Source: Euzebyella marina
GTDB taxonomy: Bacteria; Bacteroidota; Bacteroidia; Flavobacteriales; Flavobacteriaceae
Direction of reading: 5' to 3'
Assembly (NCBI RefSeq): GCF_014855515.1
Contig: NZ_JACYFK010000001.1
Coordinates: 1,488,001-1,552,000, forward strand
Length of the DNA stretch: 64,000 bases
The position numbers and the translations under genes are program-made. The first letter of the stretch is position 1; every line of letters begins with the position of its first letter. The notes beneath the pieces are model-generated. The model made no database searches and had not been told where the DNA came from. It was given only the letters and a program-made list of their open reading frames with translations. Below are positions 6,563 through 32,399 of this stretch, in pieces.

Positions 6563-6777
6563 TCATTTCGCCACAAAAGAACCAGTTTCTTAATTCATAA
6601 ATTGAGTTCTTATAAATTTGAACCTATGTAATAGGTGTTTTGAGCTAGATTTTTTCAAGGAATTTATTTGACCTATTTGTTCGACGCTTAATTTACAATT
6701 ATCGTATTCCTTTAAGCATAAAGTAAATAATCAAGAATATTTAAGGAGATAGTGTTTACTAATTTATAATAGGCTAA

Positions 6778-7914: not shown

Positions 7915-7945
7915 TTCTATACCATAAAAACAAAGAATACGGGTA

Positions 7946-8247: not shown

Positions 8248-8274
8248 CTTAGGGAAAAGTTTAAAAAAGACTAG

Positions 8275-8580: not shown

Positions 8581-8735
8581 GGGAAGGTTCGTAAAAAATA
8601 TTGTAAAAGGGGAGGTTTAATTCTAAAGACATCAACTGAATAAAATACCATTTTAAACTGGAGAGGTGCAAATCATCACTATGTTACAACTAAAAGATTT
8701 AGCTTCTGAACACAGCTAAAAAAATCCCATAAAAG

Positions 8736-9569: not shown

Positions 9570-9702
9570 AGGGGGCAAAAATAATAGCTACGCTTGTTTT
9601 AAGAAGAATCGGTTTAAAATAAAACTAACTCATTTGCGAGCGCTACAGATTATAACCTCGTCAATTTAAAGTTATTGTGGTAAATATGGCGAAGATGGGT
9701 TT

Positions 9703-10605
9703 TCAAAAGTAGATTTTCTGGGCGAGTCGATAGGTGTTGGCATGTGCCTCAACAATCACTTTGATATCGGGAGAATAACCACCGCCCATACTACATTGTA
9801 CAGGAATATGGTGTTCGTGACAGGTATTAAGCACAAATTCGTCCCTTTCTTTACAGCCTTGCAAGGTAAGCGACAAAGTACCCAGTTTGTCGGACTCTAG
9901 AACATCTACCCCTGATAGGTAGAAAATAAAATCGGGTTTTACCGTTTCTAGTAAATGGGGTAAGGTTTCTTTTAACAAGCCGAGATATTCCTGGTCTTCG
10001 GTCCCCTTTTTTAACGAAATGTCCAGGTCCGACACCTCTTTCTTAAAGGGGTAATTGCCTTCTCCGTGCATAGAGAAGGTGAAAACAGAATCGTCATTTT
10101 GAAAAATTTCTGCCGTTCCGTTTCCTTGGTGCACATCCAAATCAATAATCAGTATTTTTTTGGCCCAACCGTTTGCTTGCAGGTATCTGGCACCAATAGC
10201 TTGGTCGTTCAGCATACAAAAGGCTTCTCCGCGGTCGCTGTAAGCGTGGTGCGTACCGCCGGCTATATTCATTGAAATGCCATATTTTATTGCGTATTCA
10301 CAGGCTTTCATCGTGCCATCGGCAATAATGCGCTCCCTTTCCACCAAGTTTTCGCTTAAGGGAAAGCCAATTTTTCTAGCCTCACGGGGCGGTATTTTAA
10401 TATTCAATAAGTCATAAAAATACTCAGGGTCGTGAACGGCTACAATGTGCTTGTCATTGGGTGTTACGGGTTCGAAAAAATTTTCGGGCGAGCAAGTACC
10501 TTCGTGTAAGAGCTGTTTGGGCAAAAGCTCGTATTTGACCATGGGGAAACGGTGCCCTTCGGGTAATGGGTGATTATAAATAGGGTGATAGGCTATTTTT
10601 AGCAT
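9703..10605 (-). CDS. Histone deacetylase-like (class II/AcuC-type) zinc amidohydrolase
   Basis: 300 residues of the arginase/deacetylase fold. The catalytic His pair (GGTHHAYSDRG), zinc ligands D and H (IIDLDVHQGNGT), the third zinc ligand (YLSGVDVLESD) and the glycine-rich end loop with its Tyr (MGGGYSPD) are all intact, so the enzyme should be active. Bacterial relatives remove acetyl groups from polyamines, proteins or small molecules; the substrate here is unknown. Its ATG lies two bases after the tex stop codon, so it is translationally coupled to tex. Confidence 0.87.
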   Translation of the reverse strand: MLKIAYHPIYNHPLPEGHRFPMVKYELLPKQLLHEGTCSPENFFEPVTPNDKHIVAVHDPEYFYDLLNIKIPPREARKIGFPLSENLVERERIIADGTMKACEYAIKYGISMNIAGGTHHAYSDRGEAFCMLNDQAIGARYLQANGWAKKILIIDLDVHQGNGTAEIFQNDDSVFTFSMHGEGNYPFKKEVSDLDISLKKGTEDQEYLGLLKETLPHLLETVKPDFIFYLSGVDVLESDKLGTLSLTLQGCKERDEFVLNTCHEHHIPVQCSMGGGYSPDIKVIVEAHANTYRLAQKIYF

Positions 10606-10607
10606 GG

Positions 10608-12740: not shown

Positions 12741-12845
12741 GTAAATTCTTATGGTTGAGACTAAACTGTTTTTTTAGTAAGCCAAGTGAAAGTGGCTAAA
12801 CTTTAAATTTAGAGACCTATTTGTTCAAAATGGAATAGAGAGATG

Positions 12846-12906
12846 GTTAATTCCCACTCCTAGGTTCTCGACTACGCTCGACCTGACAATTAATGGGAAA
12901 GTTAAC
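12846..12906. repeat. Palindromic intergenic element after metG
   Basis: An outer inverted repeat (GTTAATTCCCA at 12846-12856 against TGGGAAAGTTAAC at 12894-12906, with a 2-nt bulge) encloses an imperfect palindrome, AGGTTCTCGACTACGCTCGACCT written in part as TCGA-ctacgc-TCGA at 12868-12881. It touches the metG stop codon. The inner core resembles a short palindromic motif I have seen often between flavobacterial genes. It could act as a hairpin terminator for metG or be a dispersed repeat unit. No second copy was seen in this window. Confidence 0.5.
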
Positions 12907-14971
12907 TAATCCCTTCGCCGTTACCAACACCTTCTTCATCGGGGTTGACGAAAACCAATTTACCCTCTTTGCTTTCGGTCATCAGAATCATGCCCTGACT
13001 TTCAACACCACGTAAAGGTCGCGGTGCCAAATTGACCAGAACAGTAACTTTTTTACCGATAATCTCTTCTGGCTTGAAGCTTTCAGCGATACCCGAAACA
13101 ATAGTTCTGGTGTCAATGCCGGTATCTACCTTTAAAACCAGTAATTTTTTGGTCTTAGGCATTTTTTCGGCTTCCAAAATTGTACCTACACGCATATCCA
13201 ATTTCGTAAAATCATCAAAGGTGATGGTCTCTTTTTGAGGTGTGACCGCTTTCTTTTCGTTCTCGTTCGCTTTTTTGGTAGCTTCCAATTTATCTAATTG
13301 TTTTTGAATTTCGCTGTCCTCTATTTTTCTGAACAACAACTGTGATTGATTGATTTTATGTACCGCCGGTAACAACGATTCTTTTTGCGAAACATCGTTC
13401 CAGCCCAAGTCGGTAGATAGGGCCAGTATTGATTTTAATTTATTGGAAGTAAAAGGCACGAAAGGCTCACTTAAAACAGCTAGACCAGTAGCTATTTGCA
13501 GGGCGACATACATTATCGTTTGCACCCTTTCTTCGTCTTGTTTAATAACCTTCCAAGGTTCTTCGTCGGCCAAATACTTATTACCCAAACGTGCTAGGTT
13601 CATTAATTCTTGGGCCGCTTCCCTAAAGCGGTATCTTTCCAAGGAATTGGAAATAACTTCTGGATATTTTTTAAGGGCATCCAAAGTTTCTTGGTCCACC
13701 TCGGTAAAGTCGGACGGTGCAGGAATTACCCCATCATAATATTTGTTGGTCAATACAACCACCCGGTTGATGAAATTACCCAAGATGGCCACCAACTCAT
13801 TGTTGTTGCGGGCCTGAAAATCCTTCCAAGTAAAATCATTGTCCTTCGTTTCAGGTGTGTTGGCCGTTAGCGTATAGCGCAACACATCTTGCATATCAGG
13901 AAACTCTTCTAAGTATTCGTGCAACCAAACGGCCCAATTTTTAGAGGTGGAGAGCTTGTTGCCTTCCAAATTCAAGAACTCATTGGCCGGAACGTTTTCC
14001 GGAAGAATATAACCACCATGCGATTTTAGAATAGCGGGAAATATGATGCAGTGGAAAACAATGTTGTCTTTCCCAATAAAATGAACCAATTTGGTGTCTT
14101 TGTCTTTCCAATAAGGCTCCCAATCTTTTCCTTCTCTTTTTGCCCACTCTTTAGTAGAAGAAATATAGCCGATAGGGGCATCGAACCAAACGTACAGTAC
14201 TTTACCTTCTCCGCCTTCTACCGGTACCGGTATACCCCAATCTAAATCTCTAGTAACGGCTCTAGGTTCAAGTCCACCATCTATCCAGCTTTTGCATTGC
14301 CCGTACACATTGGGTTTCCAATCGTTTTTATGTCCTTCAAGGATCCAATCCCTTAAAAAGCCTTCGTACCTGTCCAAAGGCAAGAACCAGTGTTTGGTTT
14401 CTTTTGTGGTAGGTGTGCTTCCTGTAATGGTTGATTTTGGGTTGATCAAATCAGTTGCATTTAACGAAGACCCACAATTTTCACATTGGTCACCATAGGC
14501 CTCTTCATGCCCGCATTTAGGGCAAGTGCCGATTACAAAACGATCGGCCAAAAATTGCTTGGCTTCTTCATCATATAATTGGGCGGTAGTCTCTTCAATA
14601 AAATCACCTTGCTCGTATAATTTTTTAAAGAAATCGGATGCCGTTTCGTGATGAACCTCGGCAGAAGTTCTAGAATAATTGTCGAAAGTAATGCCGAAGT
14701 CTTGAAACGACTTTTTAATGATGGCATGGTACTTATCGATAATCTCTTTGGGTGTTACCCCTTCTTTTTTGGCCTTCATTGAAATTGCGACCCCATGCTC
14801 ATCGCTTCCACAGACAAAGGCAACCTCTTTTCCGGTCAGTCTTAAGTATCTGGCGTAAATATCTGCAGGAACATATACACCCGCCAAGTGACCAATATGA
14901 ATTGGTCCGTTAGTATAGGGTAATGCAGCAGTAATGGTATAACGAGCGGGAGTAAGATTTTTTTCGGCCAT
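12902..14971 (-). CDS. metG: Methionyl-tRNA synthetase with C-terminal tRNA-binding domain
   Basis: 689 residues from the ATG at 14969-14971; the TTG one codon earlier is not needed. The class I signatures are HIGH (PIHIGHLAG, near residue 22) and KMSKS-type KLSTS ([10 protein letters not shown], about residue 340). A CPKCG...CENCG zinc knot lies around residue 150. The C-terminal 100 residues are an EMAP/Trbp111-like tRNA-binding domain ([20 protein letters not shown]). It charges tRNA-Met for initiation and elongation. A good promoter match sits immediately upstream, and a palindromic element follows. Confidence 0.97.
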
Positions 14972-14990
14972 CAAATTTGAAATTAGGCCA

Positions 14991-15022
14991 CAAAAATAAG
15001 GTTTTTGCTACGAGGGATACAA
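14991..15022 (-). promoter_or_regulatory. Bacteroidota-type promoter of metG
   Basis: On the minus strand TATTTTTG (14991-14998) matches the TAnnTTTG -7 consensus, and TTG (15020-15022) lies 21 bp upstream as the -33 element. This would place the transcription start about a dozen bases before the metG ATG. It is a pattern match only. Confidence 0.5.
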
Positions 15023-15042
15023 GTAATATTCAAAAAGCAAAA

Positions 15043-15068
15043 CCCTCGTAAATTAGGGTTAACGAGGG
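15043..15068 (-). terminator. Terminator after the DUF1800-DUF1501 genes
   Basis: CCCTCGT (15043-15049) and ACGAGGG (15062-15068) form a 7-bp GC-rich stem with a 12-nt loop. On the minus strand it is followed by TTTTGCTTTTTG. It lies about 30 bp after the DUF1501 stop codon. Confidence 0.6.
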
Positions 15069-15096
15069 CTTGTTAGGATTGATTGAAATTGATGTG

Positions 15097-16806
15097 CTAT
15101 GCGACCATAACCGATTTGCTCATTTTATGGTCTTGTACTTGTATGCGATAGATATATTTACCAGCTGCCAAATGACCCGGCATACTTTCTTTTATGTTGA
15201 TTTCATTGGCTCCGGCAGTCATGATGGTATTGCGTATGGTACCCACGCGCTGCCCAACTATGTTGAACAATTGAATATCTACATGGGCCGTTACCGGCAT
15301 TTCAATATAGATATGCGGGGCATCGTCTGTCGGATAGTACGGTTTGTGAACAATAGCATTTATCTCGGCACTGCTAGGCACTACAGGACTTTCGGTTTGA
15401 CTGTCAGGAGTAGTGGGAATGGTAGGTTCACCATCACTGTAAGCGATTTCAGGAAAATCGGTTCCACTACAATTAAAACCAAGATTTACAGGTGCATAGG
15501 GGTGGTCTAGTAAGTGTTGCTCTACTAATGGAATTGGAACGCAGAGCCACTCGGCCAAAACCGTGGCATACAAATCTCTAAAATCCATAGTGTACTCTAA
15601 ATTCCCCCGGCCATCAGGGTTGTCGAGAGTTGGATGCTCACCAACAAATGCACTGCCATTCAATCCTTTTCCGAAGAAAAGGGTAGGGGCGGCCTTGCCA
15701 TGATCGGTGCCGTTGGATCCATTTTCAAAAATTCTTCTACCAAACTCTGAAAACGTCATGCTCAGTACCTTATCGTCTTGTTCGGTATAAGCAAGGTCTT
15801 CGTAAAAATTGTTGATGGCAATCGATAAATTGCTCATTAGTCTCTCGTGCGCCAAGGGTTGGTTGCCATGGGTGTCAAAGCCTCCCATAGATATCATATA
15901 CACCTTTGTACCTAAGTTTCCTTTGATCAAACGGGCTAAAAGCGCCAATTGTCGGGCGAAGCCGTTGTCTTGATATTCTACCTGATTTTGGCCTCTTGAC
16001 CAAGCTTCGTGAATAATGCCTGAGTATTCGTAGGTGGTATTGGCCACACCTCTTAAAAATTTAAGTTGGTCGCCATACATACAGTCGTTGAACAGGGTAT
16101 CTTCTAAACCATATCGCACACCCGATTCGGCGATTTCCTCTAACTGGTCGATATTCGAGGTAACGAACGCATAATTGGTTTCTTCGCCTTGAAAAACCAA
16201 ACTACCGAACTGACCTATTTGAATGGCCGCTGGTGCGGGAGGGGGCGAAATAAGGTAATCAGGATATATGTTCTCAAAATGCCTTCCCATCCATCCCGTG
16301 TTCAACCCACTGAATCCGGTGGTTGTTAGGTCGGTGTTGGCAAAAATATCCGATCCCGTAAAGTGGGAAAGACTTTGCCCTTCATAACCTACGCCATGAA
16401 CCGCCTTGAACTGGCCTTGGTCCCACATTGCTTCCAAAGACTTCATGTAAGATGGCACACCGAACTCATCGGTAAGCTTCAATACTTTGCTCTCCGGAAT
16501 ATAAATGTTGGGTCGCGCGTTGGCGTATGAATCATATTGCTCAATGGGTATAACGGTGCTCAGACCATCGTTTCCACCCGAAAGACGAATAAGAATTAAA
16601 ATGTTGTCTGTTTCAGCGGCTGCAATAGCCGATGTTAGAGGTGACGGTGCCGAGGCCGTTAAAAAATTGGAACCTAGCATCATCGAACCTGATCCAGCTA
16701 TGCCGAGTGCCTGTAAAAATGAGCGTCTGCTCCATGCTTTATGTTCTTGGTCATGGCCTTCGTGTTGCAGGCCCTTATGAGGTGAATTATGGTGGGTATC
16801 GCACAT
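15097..16806 (-). CDS. DUF1501 protein with Tat signal and type IX sorting domain
   Basis: 569 residues. A His-rich leader (residues 5-22) precedes a twin-arginine motif S-R-R-S-F-L (26-31) and a hydrophobic stretch, so Tat export is expected. The central part is a DUF1501 domain (sulfatase-like fold; LIRLSGGNDGLSTVIP at the start, MGGFDTHGNQ and FSEFGRRIFENGSNGTDHG later). The last 75 residues look like a type A T9SS C-terminal domain (DIQLFNIVGQRVG, LAAGKYIYRIQV and a basic KSVMVA end), which would send it across the outer membrane. DUF1501 proteins nearly always pair with DUF1800 genes, as here (9 bp spacing). Their biochemical role is not established. Confidence 0.85.
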   Translation of the reverse strand: MCDTHHNSPHKGLQHEGHDQEHKAWSRRSFLQALGIAGSGSMMLGSNFLTASAPSPLTSAIAAAETDNILILIRLSGGNDGLSTVIPIEQYDSYANARPNIYIPESKVLKLTDEFGVPSYMKSLEAMWDQGQFKAVHGVGYEGQSLSHFTGSDIFANTDLTTTGFSGLNTGWMGRHFENIYPDYLISPPPAPAAIQIGQFGSLVFQGEETNYAFVTSNIDQLEEIAESGVRYGLEDTLFNDCMYGDQLKFLRGVANTTYEYSGIIHEAWSRGQNQVEYQDNGFARQLALLARLIKGNLGTKVYMISMGGFDTHGNQPLAHERLMSNLSIAINNFYEDLAYTEQDDKVLSMTFSEFGRRIFENGSNGTDHGKAAPTLFFGKGLNGSAFVGEHPTLDNPDGRGNLEYTMDFRDLYATVLAEWLCVPIPLVEQHLLDHPYAPVNLGFNCSGTDFPEIAYSDGEPTIPTTPDSQTESPVVPSSAEINAIVHKPYYPTDDAPHIYIEMPVTAHVDIQLFNIVGQRVGTIRNTIMTAGANEINIKESMPGHLAAGKYIYRIQVQDHKMSKSVMVA

Positions 16807-21794: not shown

Positions 21795-22721
21795 TTACCA
21801 AGTTCTTTTTTCGAGAACTTTATTTAGCTCTTCGGCTGTCATTTTACCCTTATCGGGATTTTTTTCTAACCAGGTTAAAAAGTCTTTTTTGACCTTGTCA
21901 GACCATTTACCGTCAATCTCTCCGGTAGAATATTTTCCTGCTTTTACCATTTCGAAGCCAAAAAGGTCTTTTAGGCCTACAAATTCACTGGTAAACACTA
22001 CCTGTTCGGCCAAATGGGCAGGTACGAATAGAACCCCTTCACTTTTTCCGATTACCAAGTCGCCCGGTAATACGATGGCATCACCTATTCGTATAGCGGT
22101 ATTAAGCCCCATTAACACCATTTCTTGCAAGAAAGAAGGATGAAAATCGCGAACGAAGGCGTTGAAGCCTTCCAGTTCAGATATCGACTCTAAATCTCTG
22201 GCACTGCCATTAAAGACTACACCATTTCCTGATTTTGCGAATATAGAGTTGGCCAATGTAGCACCCATTAAGGTTCCGGCCTCAATTTTTCCGAACCCGT
22301 CTGCCACATAAACATCGCCCGTGGTCAACACATCGATAGGCCATGAATTGGTATCACCTTTTCTACCTTGCTTATTAACTCCTCTGTCTTTAATGTTCTT
22401 TTCAACATCGGGCCTGCTAGGCATGAACATAGCCGTAACCGCCCTGCCAACAACTACATTGTTGTTGACCATTTTCCACTCCCCGGCAAATTGATTGTTA
22501 TAGCCTTCGTTTTTTAGAACCGTCCACGCATCATCGACCGATATATGCTTTGCTCTCTCTACAAGGTCATCGGATATTTTGGGACGACCGTCTTCAAATC
22601 TTTCCCCTTCCCAAGAAGAAGTCAAGAAAACAAGCTCTTCTTTTGGTATTGTCTGTGAATAAAGGTGGGTGGCAAATAATAAGAATGCGGCTGTAAATAG
22701 TTGAATGGCTCGGATCTTCAT
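21795..22721 (-). CDS. Exported RraA-like protein (aldolase/decarboxylase family)
   Basis: 308 residues, longer than cytoplasmic RraA proteins (about 160-230) because of a signal peptide (MKIRAIQLFTAAFLLFATHLYSQ) and an extra N-terminal region. The RraA core is present: LTTGDVYVADGFGKIEAGT, GNGVVFNGSARD with the conserved Arg-Asp pair, and GDAIVLPGDLVIGKSEGVLFVP. Relatives include 4-hydroxy-4-methyl-2-oxoglutarate aldolase/oxaloacetate decarboxylase and RNase E inhibitors; a periplasmic location rules out the latter. It follows the FecR gene by 30 bp and shares its operon with the ECF sigma factor, which ties its expression to the SusCD locus. Confidence 0.8.
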   Translation of the reverse strand: MKIRAIQLFTAAFLLFATHLYSQTIPKEELVFLTSSWEGERFEDGRPKISDDLVERAKHISVDDAWTVLKNEGYNNQFAGEWKMVNNNVVVGRAVTAMFMPSRPDVEKNIKDRGVNKQGRKGDTNSWPIDVLTTGDVYVADGFGKIEAGTLMGATLANSIFAKSGNGVVFNGSARDLESISELEGFNAFVRDFHPSFLQEMVLMGLNTAIRIGDAIVLPGDLVIGKSEGVLFVPAHLAEQVVFTSEFVGLKDLFGFEMVKAGKYSTGEIDGKWSDKVKKDFLTWLEKNPDKGKMTAEELNKVLEKRTW

Positions 22722-22751: not shown

Positions 22752-23618
22752 TTATTTTTTCTCTTTTTTAAGAGTAACGATTGTCTTTTCACTCTCATTG
22801 ATTTCGAAATTTACATCATTTATCAATGAAAGTACCTTCAATATTTGACCTAAAGAGTCGGATTTGTTGATTCTTAAAGTAACCAACTTGTTTTTTGTCA
22901 TTTCGTTAGTTTCAAATTGGTAGCCGAAACGTTCTTCGATGAAGTGAAAGAGTTTTTCCAGTTCAATATTGTTGAGGTCACTGTATTTGTTTCCTGCACT
23001 AAAGCTGAGGTCTGTCTCAAACTTTTTGACCTGCACCTTACCTTTGTCCAATAAGAAACTCTCACCGGGGATAATGGCCCAAGAACGCCTATTTTCAGTA
23101 TCCTTTAAAGACATTAGTATTCTTCCCGAGTAAAGCGACACCTCGGTTTTTTCAAGGTCTTCATTTTCTGTAACTAAAAATGAAGTGCCCAAAACGCGGG
23201 TAGATGTGCGACTGGTTTCAACCGTGAACTCTTTTAGGCTATCTTTTACGACATCAAAAAAAGCTTGGCCTGACAAGGCGACTTCTCTCTTTGAAAATTT
23301 TTTGTTGTAACTGACCGTTGAATTCGGTTTTAAAATGACAATACTACTATCGGGCAGAATAAATTCTTTATCAAGTTGAGTGTAATTGTTTATTTCAATA
23401 GTAGAGCGGTCGACACTTAATAAATAAAGAGCTGGAAGCAATAGTAGCATTATTGCAGCGGCAATGGCCCATTTAAAGGAACGTTTTGGAGAACGCGACC
23501 TTATGGTAGACTCAAGCTCGGACCATGAATTCTTGATCTGGGTCTTGGGAACGGGCGGAAAGTCTTGGCCCCAAGCAGTTTCCATTCTTTTTTCTATGTC
23601 GGACTCGTAATTTTCCAC
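22752..23618 (-). CDS. FecR-family anti-sigma factor
   Basis: 288 residues. An N-terminal cytoplasmic sigma-binding part of about 45 residues precedes a single membrane helix (WAIAAAIMLLLLPALYLLSV). The periplasmic FecR domain follows (KEFILPDSSIVILKPNSTVS, FSKREVALSGQAFFDV, LGTSFLV). The C-terminal DUF4974/STN-like domain (LEKLFHFIEERFGYQFE) contacts the TonB receptor in known systems. The start is GTG at 23616-23618; ATG at residue 12 is an alternative. It lies 49 bp after the sigma gene and transmits the SusC signal inward. Confidence 0.9.
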   Translation of the reverse strand: MENYESDIEKRMETAWGQDFPPVPKTQIKNSWSELESTIRSRSPKRSFKWAIAAAIMLLLLPALYLLSVDRSTIEINNYTQLDKEFILPDSSIVILKPNSTVSYNKKFSKREVALSGQAFFDVVKDSLKEFTVETSRTSTRVLGTSFLVTENEDLEKTEVSLYSGRILMSLKDTENRRSWAIIPGESFLLDKGKVQVKKFETDLSFSAGNKYSDLNNIELEKLFHFIEERFGYQFETNEMTKNKLVTLRINKSDSLGQILKVLSLINDVNFEINESEKTIVTLKKEKK

Positions 23619-23667: not shown

Positions 23668-24216
23668 CTAATTCTTTTTGTTTTTTTCTTTCTCCAATTC
23701 TTGCTTAATATGATTCTGGGCCAAATAAATATGATTTGCGATTGTTTTTTTTGAAATGTTCAGTGATGCAGCTATCTCTTCATACGATAGGTTTTCTATT
23801 TTATGCAACACAAAAACTTCGCGCCTTTTGTTGGGCAAACTTTTTAAAACACTGTACAGCCATTCTAAGTTAATTTCATCTTGACCCGTATTTTCTTTGA
23901 TTTCAGTGGCCCCGAAAAAGTTCTTTTCTTCGGTCGGCACTAATTTTGACTCCCGTTTTAAATGGTTGAGAATAATATTGCGGCAGATAGTGTATATCTG
24001 TTTGTCTATTAAGACGTCTTCCTTTAATTTATCCCTGTTTTCCCAAAGTCTTAAAAACGTTTGTTGTACGAAGTCGTCCGGTTCTAGGGTGGGGGAGTTG
24101 AATTTCTTTGCGAACCAGTATAACTTGGAGTAAAAGAGCGAGTATAATTTTTCTAAAGAGCTTAGGTTTCCTTTTTTTATACTCTTAACCAAGAAATATG
24201 TATTCTGATCTTTCAA
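23668..24216 (-). CDS. ECF-type RNA polymerase sigma factor (FecI-like)
   Basis: 182 residues with sigma region 2 (LEPDDFVQQTFLRLWENRDK) and region 4 (KRREVFVLHKIENLSYEEIA, then SKKTIANHIYLAQNHIKQ). The start is TTG at 24214-24216, the only reasonable initiation codon after the in-frame stop upstream. It heads the sigma/anti-sigma/RraA-like operon, which begins just after the terminator of the SusCD operon. It most likely activates the SusCD promoter when substrate is bound, by analogy with Bacteroides systems. Confidence 0.9.
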   Translation of the reverse strand: MKDQNTYFLVKSIKKGNLSSLEKLYSLFYSKLYWFAKKFNSPTLEPDDFVQQTFLRLWENRDKLKEDVLIDKQIYTICRNIILNHLKRESKLVPTEEKNFFGATEIKENTGQDEINLEWLYSVLKSLPNKRREVFVLHKIENLSYEEIAASLNISKKTIANHIYLAQNHIKQELEKEKNKKN

Positions 24217-24329: not shown

Positions 24330-24354
24330 TACCGGACTTAATAAAAGCCCGGTA
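24330..24354 (-). terminator. Terminator of the SusC-to-amidohydrolase operon
   Basis: TACCGGACTT (24330-24339) and AAGCCCGGTA (24345-24354) form a 10-bp stem with a short loop. The one imperfect pair is A-C on the plus strand but G-U in minus-strand RNA, and on that strand the stem runs into ATTTCTTTTT. All of this marks it as a minus-strand terminator. Confidence 0.7.
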
Positions 24355-24408: not shown

Positions 24409-25644
24409 TTATTTGGATAGGGACCGTCCGTTAAGGTCATAAACTACCTTTCCGTCTCGAATGGTCAACTCACATTCTAATCGTACTTTGCCTTTTTCAA
24501 GGTGGCCTGTGTAATCGAAATACCCAAAATCACCTTTGTTCAATTTGAGAATGGCCACATCTGCCGGCATATCGGCAGATAGATTGCCCAGTTCTTCACG
24601 AAGTATGGCCTTCGCCGGATTCCATGTTGTGGCTTCTATCACTTCTTCAAGCTCCATGCCCATCACTAAGAATTTTGACATGACACTTAAAAGGTCTTTC
24701 ATCGCATTGTTCATACTGCCGATATGTAGATCGGTACTTATAGTATTTGGGTAAAAGCCAGATTTAACTGCCGGTATGGCTTGGGAGTATGCAAAGCTGA
24801 TCCCACCGTAGCCGACATCGAATACGATACCTTTTTCCTGTGCTTTTGAAACAAAAGGTTTCAGTTCTTTCGAATTAACGTCTACAACAGTCTCCCTCGT
24901 TTCCAATTCGGCAAATGCATGGGTGTAAATATCTCCGGGGCGTAGATGTTGCATGAATAGTTCTTCTATCGAAAGCGGAGGTCGGCTTCCCCCAAAATCT
25001 ATAATCACAGGTTTTTTAGAGAGGTTTCCGGCCTCAACGGCACGGTCAACCGGTGTCCAGTCTGGCCCCTCGTAATGGGCTACCTTAAAACCAACTATAT
25101 CATCAGAATATTTTTGGGCCATTTGGGCACTCAACTTGGCATTCATGTCATTGGTATCTTGCTCGTAATTTCCTCCGCGCATACCTTCGCCCACAATGTT
25201 TAAAAATGAAAGAACTCTTGTCTTTGAGCGGTCAATGATATTCTCTTTGAATGTAGGAAATGATTTCCAACCCGATCCACCACAGTCGACCACGGTAGTG
25301 ATACCTGTGCGAAAACTAAAGCCGTCTGGGGCCACCGAACCTGGTCCATTACTATATGCCCGACCCGCTTCAGTACCTGCAAATACATGCTGATGAATAT
25401 CGATCAAACCCGGGGTAACATAAAGCCCCTTGGCCTCAACAACTTTTTCGGCATCTTTAGTATTAATATTCTTGGCCACCTTGACAATCTTGTTATCCTT
25501 GATTGCCACATCCATTACTTCATCAATACTGTTTTTGGGGTCAATGACATGTCCGCCCTTAATAACGATGGAGTATTCTTGCGACCATGAGATGTTAAGG
25601 CAGAGAAGCAACCCTATAATCAGTAGACTCTGTTGTTTTTTCAT
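24409..25644 (-). CDS. Exported amidohydrolase-superfamily metallohydrolase (EF_0837/deacetylase type)
   Basis: 411 residues from the ATG at 25642-25644, chosen because it begins a good signal peptide (MKKQQSLLIIGLLLCLNISWS, before QEY); the upstream TTG does not. Metal-binding HxH is in TPGLIDIHQHVFAG, a candidate bridging Lys is in VGFKVAHYEG, and the catalytic Asp is in STDLHIGSMN. The adenine-deaminase/dihydroorotase-like frame VKGGHVIDPKNSID is at the N-terminus. Family members hydrolyse N-acyl or O-acyl groups on alpha-substituted acids; the substrate here is unknown. It follows the PLP enzyme by 43 bp, a pairing also seen in other bacteria (EF_0837/EF_0838, dga-type loci). Confidence 0.85.
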   Translation of the reverse strand: MKKQQSLLIIGLLLCLNISWSQEYSIVIKGGHVIDPKNSIDEVMDVAIKDNKIVKVAKNINTKDAEKVVEAKGLYVTPGLIDIHQHVFAGTEAGRAYSNGPGSVAPDGFSFRTGITTVVDCGGSGWKSFPTFKENIIDRSKTRVLSFLNIVGEGMRGGNYEQDTNDMNAKLSAQMAQKYSDDIVGFKVAHYEGPDWTPVDRAVEAGNLSKKPVIIDFGGSRPPLSIEELFMQHLRPGDIYTHAFAELETRETVVDVNSKELKPFVSKAQEKGIVFDVGYGGISFAYSQAIPAVKSGFYPNTISTDLHIGSMNNAMKDLLSVMSKFLVMGMELEEVIEATTWNPAKAILREELGNLSADMPADVAILKLNKGDFGYFDYTGHLEKGKVRLECELTIRDGKVVYDLNGRSLSK

Positions 25645-25687
25645 TTGTGTTACTTGTGTTCTTATAATTTTCAACCTGTCTTATCTC

Positions 25688-26914
25688 TTAGGAAAGATGG
25701 TCTTGTAAAATTTGTTTCAACCTTTCGGCTACTATGCTCACTTGCTCTTCCCTTAAAAGAACCACTCCAACGTTCAGTAACTGCTTGCCGTCTTTTTTGG
25801 CGACGTTGGTCACGATGCTCGGGGTACCGTTCTTTAGTGCTTCATAAATCTCTTTTGGATTGGCCTTAAGCTTGCTTTCGTTCCAAGAAACATGTAGGCT
25901 GGGGAAGGCATTAGCAGGGCCAGGATTGATGTAGGTTTCCCCGGTTACACCAGCAACTGATTCTACCACTGATTTAATGCTCTCTACTCGAGACAACCAT
26001 TCTTGCCATTCTTTTTTGTGGTCACGGCCTAAATAGGCTTTGAGGGCGGCATACATACCAAAAATCTCTTCTTTGTTTACCTTCATGGGCCTGCCTATCG
26101 GCGCTTCATGAGGGCTATGGTTCAATTTGGCAGCTTCTATCAAATCTTTTCTTCCGAATAAAAGACCGGCGCTCTGTGGGCCACGGATCATTTTACCTCC
26201 CGAAAAAGTAACGAGGTCAAAGCCCATTTTCTGAAATTTAAAAAGATTTTCAACCGGAGGTACATCGGCGGCAGCATCGATAAAAGAAGGTACGTTCTTC
26301 TTCTTTGCCCGTGCCACGAACTCTTCATGGGTGATGGTCGATTTTTCGGCCGCATTAAAGAAAAGGGCCATTACCGTATTCTCGTTGATAGCCTTTTCCA
26401 TCTCATCGGCATCGTCTACCTCAATGATTTTTGCTCCTGTTGTGGTAATCGCTTGGTCGAAAACATACCTGTGCGATTTTTGCATGATAACCTCTGGTCG
26501 GGGTCCCGGTAAATTGGGTAATAGCTTGGTCTTTTCAAGGTCATCGCCAGTAATACATGCTGCGGTTGCTAGAACCATGGCACATGCGGCACCGGAGGTA
26601 ACCATGGCCGCTTCACATTTTAGCATTTCTGCAATTTTTGCCCCTACCTTGTCTTGCAGTTCGTGCATGTTGGCAAAGTCGTGTGCCGTTGAATTTATGG
26701 CATCCAATACTTCAGGTAGCATTAGCGAACCCGATAAAAAGGTCATGGTAACATTGGCGTTGATTACTCTAGTGATGCCTAGTTCTTCGAAATAATCAAT
26801 CTTTGATGTCGGTTTTTCGTCATTTGCCTTTAAGGCCAGTGATTCTGGCCGGCACATTAAACTTCCTGCGATGGGTACCAAAGACAGGTTTTTGACAGCG
26901 TCCCTTCTTTTCAT
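25688..26914 (-). CDS. Exported SelA-like PLP-dependent enzyme (candidate ammonia-lyase)
   Basis: 408 residues from the ATG at 26912-26914, which gives an N-terminus M-K-R-R-D-A-V-K-N-L with a hydrophobic stretch, a Tat-type signal. The longer frame would overlap ridA by 19 bp and lacks sense. The fold is aminotransferase class V/SelA-like: TSGAACAMVLATAACI, PSFIDAAADVPP and the PLP lysine in TFSGGKMIRGPQSAGL. Closest in character to D-glucosaminate-6-phosphate ammonia-lyase (DgaE) and EF_0838-type proteins. Tat export fits an enzyme that folds around its cofactor in the cytoplasm. Neighbour RidA suggests the product is an enamine/imine. Confidence 0.82.
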   Translation of the reverse strand: MKRRDAVKNLSLVPIAGSLMCRPESLALKANDEKPTSKIDYFEELGITRVINANVTMTFLSGSLMLPEVLDAINSTAHDFANMHELQDKVGAKIAEMLKCEAAMVTSGAACAMVLATAACITGDDLEKTKLLPNLPGPRPEVIMQKSHRYVFDQAITTTGAKIIEVDDADEMEKAINENTVMALFFNAAEKSTITHEEFVARAKKKNVPSFIDAAADVPPVENLFKFQKMGFDLVTFSGGKMIRGPQSAGLLFGRKDLIEAAKLNHSPHEAPIGRPMKVNKEEIFGMYAALKAYLGRDHKKEWQEWLSRVESIKSVVESVAGVTGETYINPGPANAFPSLHVSWNESKLKANPKEIYEALKNGTPSIVTNVAKKDGKQLLNVGVVLLREEQVSIVAERLKQILQDHLS

Positions 26915-26943
26915 AAAATTTAGTGTTTTATGCTCATTTGGTT

Positions 26944-27414
26944 TTACACATATGCTATACAATCCATTTCTACCAATGAATCTCCCGGTACACCACCTTG
27001 GGCAACGGCCACAGTGGTTCTTACGGGTGGTTTGTCGCCAAAACGACCTTTGTATACTTCGTTCATGGCTTGGTAATCGGCAATGTCGTTAAGAAAAACA
27101 CTGACCTTTACCACCTTATCCATCGATGAGCCTGCTTTGATTAGCTCTTTTTCAAGCTCTTTGAGAACTATTTCGGTATGCGCCTTTATTTCAAAAGGTT
27201 CGGTATGGGCACCTTTACCAGCAATAAAAATCAAATTGCCTACTCGGGTAGAACCGGAGAAAAGGGGTACACCTTGAAAATCCTTTATATTATTGGCAGT
27301 TTTAAAGGAGGGTTCTTCAGTTTCGTATGCCCTAACCGAGCTAACACCGAATAAGGTGGCCAGGCCTAAACCTAATTTTTTGAACGAGGCTCTTCTTCCA
27401 TTTTTTACTTTCAT
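26944..27414 (-). CDS. Exported RidA-family enamine/imine deaminase
   Basis: 156 residues, about 28 more than cytoplasmic RidA, owing to an N-terminal signal (GRRASFKKLGLGLATLFG), twin-arginine in type and ending VRA. The RidA core is complete: LFSGSTRVGNLIFIAG, VSVFLNDIADYQAMNEVY and PPVRTTVAVAQG, which carries the catalytic Arg, with VEMDCIAYV for the conserved Glu. RidA hydrolyses reactive enamines/imines released by PLP dehydratases and lyases, giving 2-keto acids. Here it sits between susD and the PLP enzyme gene (29 bp before it), so it probably serves that enzyme in the periplasm. Confidence 0.87.
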   Translation of the reverse strand: MKVKNGRRASFKKLGLGLATLFGVSSVRAYETEEPSFKTANNIKDFQGVPLFSGSTRVGNLIFIAGKGAHTEPFEIKAHTEIVLKELEKELIKAGSSMDKVVKVSVFLNDIADYQAMNEVYKGRFGDKPPVRTTVAVAQGGVPGDSLVEMDCIAYV

Positions 27415-27481
27415 AGTTCTCTTTTTTAGAAATGAATTGTATAGTTATGTTGGTTGTTGGTTAATCTGGTTTGGTATATGG

Positions 27482-29032
27482 TTATGGCTTATCCCACCAG
27501 ACGGTACTGGTAAAAGAGTTTCCTACACCTTGTCTATCAACAGCTTCCTGAAAATTGGCTGCGTTGATGGTGCTTTCTGCGTCAGGTAATACAAAGCGGG
27601 TCGGTATGACGCCACCAGTAAGATTTCCTGGGTAGTTGACGGGGGTCAGTTCCGGATAGCCCGTTCTTCTCCAATTGGCAAAAATTTCATATCCATCCAA
27701 GAATAAAGACACCCATTTTTGAGTATGGATCTGTTCCATTTGTTCATCCATAGAACCACCTGTCAAATAAGGGTTTTGTTCTAGATAACTATCTACCCTG
27801 GTGCTGCTGATAACGCCATCTTCGCCAAAGAGCGACCATTGGGCCATACCTGCCCTTACGGCCGATTCGTATGCACTTTGTGCATCGCCATCGTACCAAC
27901 CTCTTAAGGCCGCTTCTGACAAAAGAAGGTCAACCTCGGCATTGGTAAAAACCAGTAGGGGGGCATCGTATCTTAAAATGGTATTCGGATGAGGTTCTGA
28001 GTAAATGGCAAATTCTGCGGGCTTGCTGTTAAAAGCCGCATTTTGCATGCCTTCTTGCAAGGTAGAGGTAGTATCGGCCACATATCTGTCACCGTTAAGA
28101 ACCCAAACGACCGAAATGGCATTTAATCTTGGGTCTCCTGTAGTTTTAAGGTGGTCAATAAAGGTTTTGGCCAGTTTGCCTCCTTCTACATTATCCTCAC
28201 TTTGCGGATCGATATAATCGCCATCAAGAAGCGCCGTGGCTATCGGGTTTCTACTGGAAACTTGAGAACCATCAACATAATCAATCTTTGCCAAATCATC
28301 GTTACTGGTCATAACACCGCCGGCAATGGCTTTTTCGACCCATGTTTGAGCCAATTGTTCATCTACATTGGTCAATCTCATACCCAAGCGCAGCATTAAC
28401 GAGTAAGCGAATTTTCTCCATTTATCAACATTACCGTCATAGATAAGGTCTGAAGAACCAAAGCTTGTGAGTGAAGGATTTAAGGCGGAAGCCGCTTCCT
28501 CCAATTCATTGAGCATATCGGCATAGATAGCCGATTGTTCGTCATATTTAGGTGTGTACACCTGACCGCTAATACCTTGACCGGCCTCGCTGTAAGGCAC
28601 GTCGCCATACAAATCTGTTATATGATGAAAAATATACGCTCTCCAAATACGGGCTATCGAAAGCTTGGTAACATCTTCCGGGTTTTCGCTTAAGGCTTTG
28701 ATAACCTCTTGTATCTCATTCACCGCATTGGGGTAAACAGCGGTAAAGTAGCCTTTAGAGTAACCATCGTTGAAATATTTATCTCCCGCAGCAGGTACTT
28801 CTTTATAGGTGGCAAATTGTTGCATAGATCCCCCAATGGTCAAGGCTGAGGTTCCGAAGTAACTAACGTTGACCGCATCTAACTGCGCCTTGCTAAAAAG
28901 GTATTCAGGAATGATCTCGCCGTAGGCATCGGGGTTCTCGTTGAGTGACTCAAGACCTTTATCGCATGATAGCAGCGAAAGCCCTATTGCGCTAATGGCC
29001 AGATATTTTGATATAATGAAATTTACTTTCAT
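27482..29032 (-). CDS. SusD/RagB-like outer-membrane substrate-binding lipoprotein
   Basis: 516 residues. A lipoprotein signal (AISAIGLSLLSC, lipid Cys followed by DKG) anchors it to the outer membrane. The SusD_2-type pattern is clear: LESLNENPDAYGEIIPEYLF, SIARIWRAYIFHHITDLYGD with VPYSEAG after it, and GYEIFANWRRTGYPEL near the C-terminus. SusD caps the SusC pore and delivers substrate. Unlike polysaccharide loci, no glycoside hydrolase is nearby, so the cargo is more likely an amino-acid-like or peptide compound. It starts 19 bp after susC. Confidence 0.93.
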   Translation of the reverse strand: MKVNFIISKYLAISAIGLSLLSCDKGLESLNENPDAYGEIIPEYLFSKAQLDAVNVSYFGTSALTIGGSMQQFATYKEVPAAGDKYFNDGYSKGYFTAVYPNAVNEIQEVIKALSENPEDVTKLSIARIWRAYIFHHITDLYGDVPYSEAGQGISGQVYTPKYDEQSAIYADMLNELEEAASALNPSLTSFGSSDLIYDGNVDKWRKFAYSLMLRLGMRLTNVDEQLAQTWVEKAIAGGVMTSNDDLAKIDYVDGSQVSSRNPIATALLDGDYIDPQSEDNVEGGKLAKTFIDHLKTTGDPRLNAISVVWVLNGDRYVADTTSTLQEGMQNAAFNSKPAEFAIYSEPHPNTILRYDAPLLVFTNAEVDLLLSEAALRGWYDGDAQSAYESAVRAGMAQWSLFGEDGVISSTRVDSYLEQNPYLTGGSMDEQMEQIHTQKWVSLFLDGYEIFANWRRTGYPELTPVNYPGNLTGGVIPTRFVLPDAESTINAANFQEAVDRQGVGNSFTSTVWWDKP

Positions 29033-29051
29033 AAGAATGGTTTTATTGCAT

Positions 29052-32000
29052 TTAGAATTTTACGCTCAAATTGATTCCGTAACTCATAGTTCTAGGCACA
29101 CCAAAAGCTTCTAAACCTTGGGCATTGCCATTGGTATAACTTGATTCTGGATCAAAAAGGTCTGTGTTTTTATAAAGGATGGCCAAGTTTCTACCGACCA
29201 ACGAAACAGATAAAGATTGTAATTCTTTAATCTTATTCAACGGAAGGCTATAAGTCAAGATAACTTGACGAAGTTTTACAAAACTACCATCGTAGACGAA
29301 AATGTCGGTGTAATTCTTTTGGTTGTCGTAATAGGTATCTAATTCCTCAACAGGAACTACCCTTGAGTAGGGGTTTCCATTTAAATCGACCCCAGATAAT
29401 TGAAGTCCGTTTTCTCTACCAGGTAAAGTGGCTTTTGTTAAACCGAACCTATGGGCATATTGCGCGAGGTTAGAGTAAATGGAGTTTCCGAACTTACCAT
29501 CTAGAAGTACGTTCAATGAGAAGTTTTTGTATTTAAAAGTGTTGGTAAGACCCATGGTCAAAGGAGGTACACCTTCACCAAGTTCCATAATCTCGCTTCT
29601 TAGCTCATAACCACTGTTTTGGTCATAAATGATTTCACCGGCATCGTTTCTGGCCATACGGTATCCCCAAATGGTACCGTAAGGTCTTCCGACCACGTTT
29701 TGAATCGAACCGCCACCGATTCCACTACCAACCTGAATGGTATTCAATCCTTCGGCGAGCGACACAATCTCACTTTTATTATAAGCCATGTTATAGCTCA
29801 CGTCCCAAGAAAAATTATCATTTCTGATCGGTGTACCTGAAATAAGCATTTCAATACCCTTGTTGCTAATTTCACCAACATTTAAAAGTGCCTGTGTATA
29901 ACCGGAAGCCGTTGAAATATCTGATTGAACGATGTCATCGGTAGTTTTTCTGTTGTAGAAAGTAAGGTCAAGACCCAATCGGTTGTTCAGCATTCTCAAA
30001 TCAAGACCGGCCTCATAAGTAGTAGAGGTAAGAGGTCGTAAATTCGGATTGGTTACCAAACTGGATGAAATCGCCTGAAGAGGTCTACCGTTATGACCTC
30101 CTTGTACGGTACCGTAAGTCTGGTTGATTAAGTAAGGATCTGGAGCACCGCCCCCTACTTCGGCCCATGAGCCTCTTAATTTGAATAGATTGATTGCTTG
30201 TGGTAGCTCAAAAGCTTGAGATACCAAGAAGCTACCACCAACCGAAGGGTAAAAAATACTATTGTTTTCAGGGCTTAGCGTAGAGAACCAATCTTGGCGA
30301 CCTGTCAATGTCAAATAGGCGAACCCTTTATAACCAAAATCTACCGAACCGAACAAAGAATTGACTCCTGTAGTTCTGTTAATAGGGGTAGTGGTCAGGG
30401 TAGCCAAGTTGGTATAGCTATAGAATTCCGGGATGGTAAACTCACTACCGCTGATTTGGGTAGAATTATTAATGTTCTTCTGTTTGTTACCACCTACTAA
30501 AGCCGTCAAATTAAAATCTTCGAAAAGGTCAACCGAGTAATTGGCGGTTAAAAGCATGTTAGTTTCCGACACATCAGACTTTAAAGACTCATAGCTTCCC
30601 TGAGGTCTAAAGGCTGTATAGGAAGGAGTGATGCCTTCATATTCGAAGTTGTAGAAATCTCTACTGACGCTTCCCCTTAGATATAGATTGTCCAAAATAT
30701 CATAGCGAAGATTGAACTGGCCGATAAAACGGTTTTTCTTATCGTTGTTTTTGTATCGGTTCACGACCCAATATGGGTTGTTCGCCACGTTAACTGGGTT
30801 CCATAACAATTCAGTTCCGTCTTCATAATAACCGGGGGCCATATTGGTAACATCGACCGTATTGGATACCAAGTTAGTTGCCCATGCGGAATTGTAATCG
30901 GCATAACCGGTACCTGGCCTGTTGCTGGCCTTTTCCAAGTTGTACTGAACCACTGTTTCTAGGCTTAATCGCTCGCTTAATTTGGCATTCAAGCTCAAGT
31001 TGGTGGTTTTTCTGTTGAACGATGAATTAGGAACTACACTTTGATTGTCGGTATTGGAAAGCGATATTCTATAATTGATGTCTTCGTTACCTCCCGAAAA
31101 AGCAATGGTGTTAACGAAATTGGTTCCGGTACGGTAAAAGTTTTTGATATTGTCTTTCACATTAACGGGGGAGTACGGTCTTTCAACACCGTCGAATTGA
31201 ACAACGGGCGAGCCATCCATTAAAGCGCCATAAGAAAGTCTACCCCATTCGATAGCTTCATCTTGTGTAGCGGGTTTTCTACCATTTGCTCCCGCCCCGT
31301 ATACATATTGAAAATCTGGAAATATAGATGGGGTGTCAAAAGTAACGTTGCTGTTAAACTGCACGCCAATACCTCTTTGAGCAACCCCTTTTTTGGTAGT
31401 AATCAAAATAACACCGTTAGAAGCTCGTGAACCGTAAAGTGCAGCAGCAGCACCTCCTTTAAGAACACTGATGGTTTCAATGTCATCAGGGTTGATACCT
31501 GCAATACCATCACCACGGTCAACGTTGATTCCTTGACCATCAGTGGTAGAACCGCCACCGGGTATAGAGTTGTCAATGGGCATGCCGTTAACTACATATA
31601 GTGGTTGGTTATTGCCCGATAGCGATCCGTTTCCCCTGATAATGACCCTACTTGATCCACCTGGCCCTGTGGCAAGCCCTGTAGCGTTTACCCCTGCTAT
31701 TTTTCCGGTAAGGGCATTGGCAATATTTGTTTCCCGTGCATCGGTAAACTCATCGCCGGCCACCTCAGATACGGAGTAGGCCAAAGCCTTTTCATCCCTT
31801 TTTATACCTAGGGCCGTCACTACGACTTCATCAAGTGCTTGGGCATCTTCGGCAAGGGTCACGTTAACAACGTCAGTACTGCCGTCCAATGTCTGTTCTA
31901 CCGTTTTCATGCCCAAGTATGAGAATACAAGTGTAGCCGTGCTAGATTCTACTTCAATGGAGTAATTGCCATCAAAGTCGCTCAATGCGCCATTGGTGCT

Positions 32001-32399
32001 GCCCTTTTCTTGCACCGTAACCCCAGGTAGGGGTACACCATCGGCGTCTAATACCTGACCGGTAATGACACTACTCTGGTCGGGAGCTTCGGTTTTGGTC
32101 TTTGTGGGAAGAGCATCTTGAGATATGGCTATGTTATTGCCCACGATACGAAAGGTGTAAACCGTTCTTTGTGTAAATTCTTGCAGTACCAGCTCTACCG
32201 TTTTGTTCTCGAAAGCATATTCGCCCGGTAATTTGTCTTTGGTGTTGATATCATCTGCGTAGGCAAATTTGTAATTGGTCTGCGATTCGATAATACTAAT
32301 TACCCGCCCAAGGGTTGGCCCGCTAAGCGAAAGCGATACTTCTTGCGGATTACCCATCGAGGGCAGGTAAAAAAGTAGTAGTAATAATATTTGCTTCAT
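29052..32399 (-). CDS. SusC/RagA TonB-dependent outer-membrane importer with STN signalling domain
   Basis: 1115 residues. In order: signal peptide; an STN domain at about 22-90 (LSLSGPTLGRVISIIESQTN), the part that talks to FecR; a carboxypeptidase-regulatory-like domain at about 95-170 (VITGQVLDADGVPLPGVTVQ); a TonB-box/plug region (LDEVVVTALGIKRDEKAL, then NGVILITTKKG); and a long beta-barrel ending in aromatic SYGINLSVKF. It actively imports the substrate bound by SusD using TonB energy. It heads the five-gene operon and is preceded by a long untranslated region. Confidence 0.95.
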   Translation of the reverse strand: MKQILLLLLFYLPSMGNPQEVSLSLSGPTLGRVISIIESQTNYKFAYADDINTKDKLPGEYAFENKTVELVLQEFTQRTVYTFRIVGNNIAISQDALPTKTKTEAPDQSSVITGQVLDADGVPLPGVTVQEKGSTNGALSDFDGNYSIEVESSTATLVFSYLGMKTVEQTLDGSTDVVNVTLAEDAQALDEVVVTALGIKRDEKALAYSVSEVAGDEFTDARETNIANALTGKIAGVNATGLATGPGGSSRVIIRGNGSLSGNNQPLYVVNGMPIDNSIPGGGSTTDGQGINVDRGDGIAGINPDDIETISVLKGGAAAALYGSRASNGVILITTKKGVAQRGIGVQFNSNVTFDTPSIFPDFQYVYGAGANGRKPATQDEAIEWGRLSYGALMDGSPVVQFDGVERPYSPVNVKDNIKNFYRTGTNFVNTIAFSGGNEDINYRISLSNTDNQSVVPNSSFNRKTTNLSLNAKLSERLSLETVVQYNLEKASNRPGTGYADYNSAWATNLVSNTVDVTNMAPGYYEDGTELLWNPVNVANNPYWVVNRYKNNDKKNRFIGQFNLRYDILDNLYLRGSVSRDFYNFEYEGITPSYTAFRPQGSYESLKSDVSETNMLLTANYSVDLFEDFNLTALVGGNKQKNINNSTQISGSEFTIPEFYSYTNLATLTTTPINRTTGVNSLFGSVDFGYKGFAYLTLTGRQDWFSTLSPENNSIFYPSVGGSFLVSQAFELPQAINLFKLRGSWAEVGGGAPDPYLINQTYGTVQGGHNGRPLQAISSSLVTNPNLRPLTSTTYEAGLDLRMLNNRLGLDLTFYNRKTTDDIVQSDISTASGYTQALLNVGEISNKGIEMLISGTPIRNDNFSWDVSYNMAYNKSEIVSLAEGLNTIQVGSGIGGGSIQNVVGRPYGTIWGYRMARNDAGEIIYDQNSGYELRSEIMELGEGVPPLTMGLTNTFKYKNFSLNVLLDGKFGNSIYSNLAQYAHRFGLTKATLPGRENGLQLSGVDLNGNPYSRVVPVEELDTYYDNQKNYTDIFVYDGSFVKLRQVILTYSLPLNKIKELQSLSVSLVGRNLAILYKNTDLFDPESSYTNGNAQGLEAFGVPRTMSYGINLSVKF

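Follow-up and report, generated by a model that had tools for sequence, protein, structure and literature searches.

Amino-acid-type chemistry dependent on pyridoxal 5'-phosphate (PLP), like the detoxification of enamines, is normally regarded as cytoplasmic. Among the described systems, the ong cluster of Pseudoalteromonas prydzensis serves the use of oxidised chitin through deacetylation of N-acetylglucosaminate and subsequent deamination to unphosphorylated 2-keto-3-deoxygluconate (KDG); its RidA protein is essential for growth, with a role called unknown by the authors, and its deaminase OngC acts on D-serine and D-threonine as well (PMC9537276). Here we describe, in a 64,000-nucleotide stretch of Euzebyella marina DNA (contig NZ_JACYFK010000001.1, positions 1,488,001 to 1,552,000; the window hereafter), a gene unit that combines a SusCD importer with a RidA protein, a SelA/DgaE-like PLP enzyme and a cog3964-type amidohydrolase. 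We consider it reasonably probable that this unit is an envelope-located, phosphate-free catabolic module for N-acetyl-2-amino-aldonates, its localisation, substrate and reactions being predicted from the sequence. Enzymes for amino-sugar acids, the PLP/RidA pair included, appear to have been shifted to the periplasm behind a dedicated outer-membrane importer.

With ong, the predicted activities of this unit share TonB-dependent import, an N-acetyl-aldonate deacetylase, a PLP deaminase and RidA, as well as the order of steps. OngB and OngC are predicted to be cytoplasmic, the former resembling D-aminoacylases and the latter belonging to fold type III, with KdgK as the next enzyme. Unlike ong, the window unit has a SelA/DgaE-like PLP enzyme, a cog3964-like deacylase, export-type signals and an RraA-like enzyme. 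By comparison of families, as distinct from a direct alignment with OngB or OngC, it falls outside the ong group, the PLP enzyme matching SelA and Aminotran_5 and the amidohydrolase matching PRK09237; by analogy, it probably works like ong without being a member. A further relative is the lyase DGL, which turns D-glucosaminate-6-phosphate into KDG-6-P (PMC9529869). Loci of the DGL or dga type likewise contain a SelA-like PLP lyase, located beside an amidohydrolase/deacetylase in Enterococcus faecalis and beside a KDGP aldolase in Lacticaseibacillus. They carry phosphotransferase-system transporter genes, and their lyases lack an N-terminal extension and keep a His pair and three arginines, whereas the window PLP enzyme is devoid of these residues and possesses, together with RidA, a signal resembling those of the twin-arginine translocation (Tat) pathway.

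Export of a PLP enzyme folded with its cofactor has a precedent in PvdN and PtaA of Pseudomonas, both Tat-exported periplasmic proteins that serve siderophore tailoring and not nutrient catabolism, and for which the part of the source at hand mentions no RidA partner (PMC6206403). The remark in an earlier appraisal of this DNA (the sequence-only reading) that a PLP/RidA pair outside the inner membrane would be unusual must consequently be toned down for the PLP enzyme. The RraA-like FlDet, from alginate catabolism in Flavobacterium, acts as a dehydratase/decarboxylase on the 2-keto-3-deoxy aldarate KDGR (PMC8563752), and hence shows that, in a strain of Bacteroidota, a protein with the RraA fold can handle a 2-keto-3-deoxy sugar acid; an export signal is not mentioned in the available part of that report. 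For an exported PLP/RidA module as such, no publication was found among the top-ranking literature matches (1 to 20 per query, out of 1 to 798).

Gene content, conservation, export-type signals and co-location are matters of direct observation. On the minus strand, the genes for SusC, SusD, RidA, the PLP enzyme and the amidohydrolase are separated by 19, 67, 29 and 43 nt, respectively, and the unit ends in a terminator-like hairpin (24330-24354; 10 pairs plus a T tract), just as the sequence-only reading had described a five-gene unit with short gaps and a shared terminator. Relative to the mechanically called open reading frames (ORFs), start codons were revised for the PLP enzyme (ATG 26914) and the amidohydrolase (ATG 25644). 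The SusC/RagA-type TonB-linked outer-membrane transporter (29052-32399, 1115 aa) scores 692.7 bits with TIGR04056, over the cut-off, and contains plug, barrel and carboxypeptidase-regulatory domains; its partner, a SusD-like outer-membrane lipoprotein (27482-29032, 516 aa), matches PF12771 (282.7 bits) and PF12741 (233.2 bits), and the paired genes make up a SusCD import unit. RidA, a member of the imine/enamine deaminase family (26944-27414, 156 aa; PF01042, 75 bits), and the PLP enzyme (25688-26914, 408 aa) have Tat-like N-termini beginning with MKVKNGRRASFKKLGLGLATLFG and MKRRDAVKNLSLVPIAGSL, respectively. The amidohydrolase/deacetylase (24409-25644, 411 aa; NCBIfam PRK09237, 427 bits against a cut-off of 371) begins with the Sec-type sequence MKKQQSLLIIGLLLCLNISWSQ. 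An RraA-like enzyme with the class II pyruvate-aldolase/keto-acid lyase fold and a Sec-type N-terminus (21795-22721, minus strand; PF03737, 62 bits) is a predicted fourth exported enzyme of the module.

The export of the PLP enzyme and of RidA is the best-supported part of our reading, although the localisation is a prediction. A rule made for this analysis (RR close to a Met, together with a hydrophobic segment free of charges) was applied to 62 full-length PLP proteins, from which the truncated ORFs L047|3 and L053|3 had been removed beforehand, and to 42 RidA homologues. It scored 60 of the former and 38 of the latter as Tat-like, versus 10 of 226 other ORFs of the same loci, and shuffled N-termini passed it at rates of 1.1% / 0.2%. 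RR precedes the conserved core in all 62 PLP proteins and is present in 40 of 42 RidA N-termini, the other two carrying RK; R[RK]xxxK occurs in 56/62 and 36/42, respectively. When 32 of the 62 PLP proteins were aligned, the twin arginines R3-R4 were found in every row, and both arginines were likewise present in all 31 rows of the RidA alignment (30 of the 42 proteins plus L068; the 12 omitted include both RK proteins). After RR, the best-kept signal residues are K8 and P14 in the PLP enzyme (29/32 each) and K12 and K13 in RidA (27/31). TatC was found in all eight PLP-carrying genomes of the survey described below. An RR with a hydrophobic stretch and a TatC-encoding genome, the sequence marks of a Tat substrate, are therefore in place as judged by our own rule, and the Tat-like signals that the sequence-only reading assigned to both proteins, and on whose conservation among orthologues its proposal hinged, are retained in the great majority of homologues. 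Several of the ten other Tat-like ORFs resemble genuine Tat proteins by eye.

The Bacteroidota sequences are interrelated, so that the most independent confirmation of the signals comes from plasmid pACIX902 of Granulicella tundricola (NC_015065, Acidobacteriota). In the plasmid collection searched (246 and 238 matching records; 12 regions read), this replicon encodes, in one direction, a presumed TonB-dependent receptor with a carboxypeptidase-regulatory domain, RraA, a PLP enzyme, RidA, a second PLP enzyme, the amidohydrolase, a lactonase and a BBE-domain protein. Tat-like N-termini are found on its two PLP enzymes and its RidA, and this Granulicella RidA passes the curated Tat model TIGR01409 (22.0 versus 16.7 bits). 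For the two enzymes with Sec-type N-termini, the corresponding rule was passed by 41 of 44 amidohydrolases (the truncated L053|6374 having been removed beforehand) and 29 of 32 RraA proteins, against 1/44 and 0/32 for the Tat rule. The Sec rule is unspecific, and the Sec export of both enzymes hence rests mainly on their N-termini as read directly; that of the window amidohydrolase agrees with the Sec signal originally noted. As proofs of export, we dropped both the Sec rule, which about half of the other ORFs pass, and TIGR01409, which is too weak on the PLP rows.

In all, 46 homologous loci were compared, 45 from the phylum of the window (taken as Bacteroidota from named relatives) and one from Acidobacteriota; several are interrupted by contig ends, and the neighbour counts exclude L001-L022 (L008-L022 were replaced by longer regions). 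RidA is present in 39 of these loci, the amidohydrolase in 38, RraA in 30, SusD in 26 and SusC in 24; in 33 of the 39 loci with RidA, its gene shares the strand of a PLP gene and is at most 150 nt away from it. A survey of 395 genomes of the phylum detected the PLP enzyme in 8, which represent 7 genera; all 8 are among the 12 genomes with the amidohydrolase and among the 24 with RraA. Hypergeometric values for co-occurrence of the amidohydrolase and RraA with the PLP enzyme are 3.6e-14 and 5.4e-11 by genome, and 1.1e-11 and 2.6e-8 by genus, figures that ignore phylogeny and derive from searches scoring few candidates per genome. All 15 amidohydrolase matches of the eight genomes fall inside PLP clusters, as do 5 of their 12 RraA matches. 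A second copy of the module in the genome of E. marina (L058, C1:580000-598000, at 7832-13221) comprises an amidohydrolase, RidA, the PLP enzyme, a YjgF_endoribonc-type protein and a GSDH-cytochrome c dehydrogenase.

The best solved relative of the PLP enzyme is DGL (7lc0, E 3.9e-32; residues below follow the numbering of this chain, which places the PLP lysine at 213, against 217 in the published description). All 32 aligned PLP rows match TIGR01437, but the window protein does so with 202 bits, below the cut-off of 385. The PLP lysine is kept in 64 of 64 aligned rows, and at the carboxylate position, Arg-226, the window protein has R, with 41 of the 64 rows showing R and 19 showing K. His-162/163 of DGL and its three arginines are absent from the window enzyme, which for this reason was not filed as a DGL; among the 64 rows, HH in the loop, Arg at 301 and Arg at 332 each occur in one, Arg-301 being found in one of the two Granulicella enzymes. 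In DGL, the three arginines are modelled close to the phosphate, and the H163A variant retains a kcat of 20 versus 27 per second, yet releases free enamine (PMC9529869). Loss of the phosphate-binding arginine cluster in nearly all rows fits an unphosphorylated substrate, and loss of the proton-donor histidine, equally widespread, could explain the need for RidA. That the absence of His-163 predicts a RidA neighbour was considered and rejected, as there are exceptions both ways; it is kept as a mechanistic rationale only. In one haloarchaeal cluster for chitin described in the literature, a putative DGL homologue is accompanied by a protein of the RutC family (PMC12343721), RutC being a Rid-family name.

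Several other SelA-like proteins came to light alongside the PLP enzyme. Several of the modules also contain a longer paralogue of about 530-570 aa that carries RR close to the N-terminus (L024 3734-5326, L053 4271-5875, L059 10738-12456, L067 8172-9848 and L068 10701-12296). On two Rhizobium plasmids (L070 6411-8188, L072 6412-8191), RidA lies beside a SelA-like enzyme of the His-pair type without a Tat-like N-terminus, near ABC transporter genes; this is a probable cytoplasmic relative of the PLP/RidA pair. On a Halomontanus plasmid (L069 4567-8197), a D-aminoacylase, a FAH-family protein and a PLP homologue are consecutive, near heparinase genes.

In RidA, R132 lies within PPVRTTV, and the PPVR arginine, which we take to be the binder of the imine carboxylate (presumably Arg-105 of Salmonella RidA), is kept in 42 of 42 aligned homologues. 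A second Rid-family protein (YjgF_endoribonc) is found in eight of the 46 loci (L056, L057, L058, L059, L060, L063, L065 and L066); the two copies scanned match PF14588, and the one in L060 looks lipoprotein-like by eye. For the amidohydrolase, we assume the metal ligands to be HxH, K, H, H and D. The window protein keeps the HxH, K, H and D positions but has Asp where the solved relative 8je0 has His; this Asp (DFG) occurs in 43 of 44 exported-type amidohydrolases, possibly indicating a changed metal site. A cog3964 enzyme studied by Ornelas in 2013 is said to deacetylate acetyl-mandelate and esters of N-acetyl-D-amino acids. The metal/pyruvate site of RraA presumably follows the pattern D-X20-R-D, which is complete in 25 of 32 rows, the first D being present in 26. 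For an RraA-type site, Arg-123 and Asp-124 have been described (PMC5065237).

Indications of the substrate class come from recurrent neighbours. Among the 46 loci, a GSDH-type sugar dehydrogenase with cytochrome c occurs in 18, an SMP-30/gluconolactonase (SGL) in 13, a CBM9-like protein in 6, and an SBF-type symporter, whose best NCBIfam model is the ketopantoate/pantoate transporter PanS (below cut-off), in 19. In the eight PLP genomes, 8 of the 9 closest GSDH-cytochrome matches (32 in all) lie in PLP clusters, which also hold 5 of 22 SBF and 7 of 56 SGL matches; the latter two are above the expectation from the base fraction (the clusters span 0.45% of the DNA), for families that were chosen after the loci had been viewed. 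Seven RraA loci without the PLP enzyme, covering 8 of the 33 RraA places outside PLP clusters, were read as well; one of them (L084) shares its contig with a PLP cluster some 25 kb away. Enzymes of the MR_MLE enolase superfamily occur in six of the seven, their N-termini all being of the RR type as judged by eye, and SBF occurs in four. For three MR_MLE proteins scanned (two from PLP-less loci and one from a PLP locus), galactonate dehydratase was the best NCBIfam model, below cut-off; in two PLP loci (L025, L055), MR_MLE and the PLP set occur together. MR_MLE sugar-acid dehydratases yield 2-keto-3-deoxy acids. Since they take the place of the PLP set in six of the seven loci, the deacylase-PLP-RidA set probably generates a 2-keto-3-deoxy acid as well, and thus looks like the amino-sugar-acid counterpart of that dehydration step. 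One of the PLP-less loci, in the E. marina genome (L080, C2:494000-511000, at 5151-16392), encodes SusC, SusD, a Tat-type MR_MLE enzyme, RraA, an SBF symporter, a PfkB kinase and a KDPG/KHG-type aldolase, which suggests a second exported sugar-acid route.

These features lend themselves to the following model. Judging from its family, SusCD would carry a 2-amino sugar acid in N-acylated form, free or as part of an oligomer, over the outer membrane, and the Sec-exported amidohydrolase would deacylate it in the periplasm to a free 2-amino-2-deoxy-aldonate, for instance D-glucosaminate. After folding together with its cofactor in the cytoplasm and export via Tat, the PLP enzyme would eliminate the C3 hydroxyl to give an enamine/imine, as its homology to DGL suggests. 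Tat-exported RidA could then hydrolyse the imine to ammonium and a 2-keto-3-deoxy-aldonate. Subsequently, the exported RraA-like enzyme may act on this keto acid by retro-aldol cleavage or by dehydration/decarboxylation, and in many loci an SBF-type symporter may import the product. In many relatives, a periplasmic fusion of a GSDH/sorbosone-type dehydrogenase with cytochrome c and an SMP-30 lactonase would produce the aldonate from the free amino sugar, and the whole route would proceed without ATP or a sugar phosphate. The succession of deacylation, PLP-dependent elimination, imine hydrolysis and keto-acid uptake anticipated by the sequence-only reading fits the families, recurs in ong and accords with the frequency of SBF genes, and it stays a prediction. 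Of the periplasmic route proposed at the same time, the exported PLP/RidA pair is upheld by the signals, but the route would be longer than envisaged, with an RraA-like enzyme and, elsewhere, the dehydrogenase-cytochrome c and lactonase. Extended to its full length, this would amount to a non-phosphorylating periplasmic amino-sugar route in Bacteroidota and on at least one Acidobacteriota plasmid, running from respiratory-chain-linked oxidation of N-acetylhexosamine through lactone opening, deacetylation, PLP-dependent ammonia elimination with a free enamine, RidA and cleavage by exported RraA to Na+-coupled uptake. In this version, the pathway would depend on RidA outside the cytoplasm, as the PLP enzyme no longer has the proton donor by which DGL releases an imine. 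We put this full-length version forward tentatively and hold it to be somewhat doubtful.

A number of observations weigh against the periplasmic module. The loci were collected by similarity of the PLP enzyme and are hence related, 13 of the 35 named ones being from Mucilaginibacter. Within the flanks of the 46 loci, RidA is missing from 7 and the amidohydrolase from 8, and the full-length loci L040 and L043 lack RidA, the amidohydrolase and RraA altogether. In one other genus, four genomes yielded a match for the amidohydrolase but none for the PLP enzyme; such absences are soft, the scoring having been confined to a few top candidates per genome. In the two of these genomes that were inspected, the amidohydrolase adjoins a lactonase gene. 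The window itself is without an SBF, SGL or GSDH-cytochrome match, the GSDH-cytochrome of this genome being located at the second module copy. Its RraA reads A-R-D, with A replacing the first D of the pattern, and its catalytic activity is uncertain as a result; A or S stands at this position in the window protein and five relatives. The simple Sec rule is also passed by 125 of the 226 other ORFs, and a stricter version (40/44 amidohydrolases, 29/32 RraA) by 96 of them, and TIGR01409 matches only 3 of 32 Bacteroidota PLP rows, with a best E of 0.3. Finally, the Rhizobium PLP enzymes keep the His pair although they lie beside RidA, and the pair is missing from the haloarchaeal and Mesorhizobium enzymes, for which the regions read, with their incomplete gene tables, show no RidA annotation.

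The weakness of TIGR01409 on the PLP rows, together with the proline within the PLP hydrophobic stretch (P14, 29/32 rows), would suit N-termini that are uncleaved anchors or non-functional remnants, in which case the PLP enzyme and RidA would face the cytoplasm and only the Sec-type enzymes would be periplasmic. We regard this as very unlikely, given that the RR pair is invariant (32/32 and 31/31) and thereby exceeds every other residue of the signal region, that R[RK]xxxK is so frequent, and that the Granulicella versions carry classical-looking Tat-like signals. Doubts of another kind concern the chemistry: the sub-threshold TIGR01437 score and the missing His pair of DGL, along with an OngD role called unknown even within ong, are compatible with a PLP enzyme that is no lyase, acting for example as a racemase, a transaminase or in beta-replacement, and with a RidA engaged otherwise, for example as a chaperone. 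With DGL as the best solved relative, the PLP lysine invariant and the carboxylate position occupied by R or K in 60 of 64 rows (41 and 19), this seems improbable to us, and a RidA partner suits an enamine-releasing lyase (PMC9529869).

The nature of the substrate is the point at which a different interpretation of an exported module has most to be said for it. The module might act on N-acyl-D-amino acids or short peptides (N-acyl-D-serine, D-threonine, 3-hydroxyaspartate), with the PLP enzyme as a D-hydroxyamino-acid dehydratase and RraA as an oxaloacetate decarboxylase. A D-aminoacylase near the haloarchaeal PLP homologue and a dipeptide epimerase near that of Mesorhizobium speak for this, as do the activity of OngC on D-serine and D-threonine, the S15/CocE hydrolase and the beta-lactamase-family hydrolase that flank the unit in the window, and the annotation of distant RraA relatives (below cut-off) as aldolase/oxaloacetate decarboxylase. 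The recurrent neighbours of the module, on the other hand, are of the sugar type (GSDH-cytochrome, SGL lactonase, CBM9-like protein), as are the MR_MLE dehydratases around RraA elsewhere, and we therefore judge amino-acid substrates to be unlikely, if less so than a non-lyase PLP enzyme.

Were the module for N-acetyl-2-amino-aldonates to operate as proposed, cells could place enamine-generating chemistry beyond the inner membrane, apart from their other PLP enzymes, and an ATP-free route would be added to those for amino sugars. Genes annotated merely as 'aminotransferase class V', 'RidA family' and 'RraA family' would thereby acquire a function, and RidA, whose part in ong is described as unknown (PMC9537276), would be given a catalytic function within a pathway. 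Since MR_MLE dehydratases and the set of amidohydrolase, PLP enzyme and RidA apparently replace each other next to RraA, the substrate class is open to direct test.

Next after the amidohydrolase on the same strand follow an extracytoplasmic function (ECF) sigma factor (23668-24216; PF08281 and PF04542, with TIGR02985 at 106 bits, below cut-off), a FecR-type anti-sigma factor (22752-23618; PF04773, PF16344) and the RraA-like gene. The ECF sigma factor is the likely regulator of the SusCD unit. A second hairpin of 16 pairs (32901-32866) lies upstream of SusC; the hairpin scan as a whole did not exceed shuffled sequences (9 versus a mean of 11.4), and scans for sigma-70 and Bacteroidota-type promoters returned sites no commoner than in shuffles. 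At 15097-16806, the window further encodes a protein of 569 aa whose N-terminus (SRRSFLQALG) is clearly Tat-like and whose C-terminus, by eye, resembles those of type IX secretion system (T9SS) substrates.

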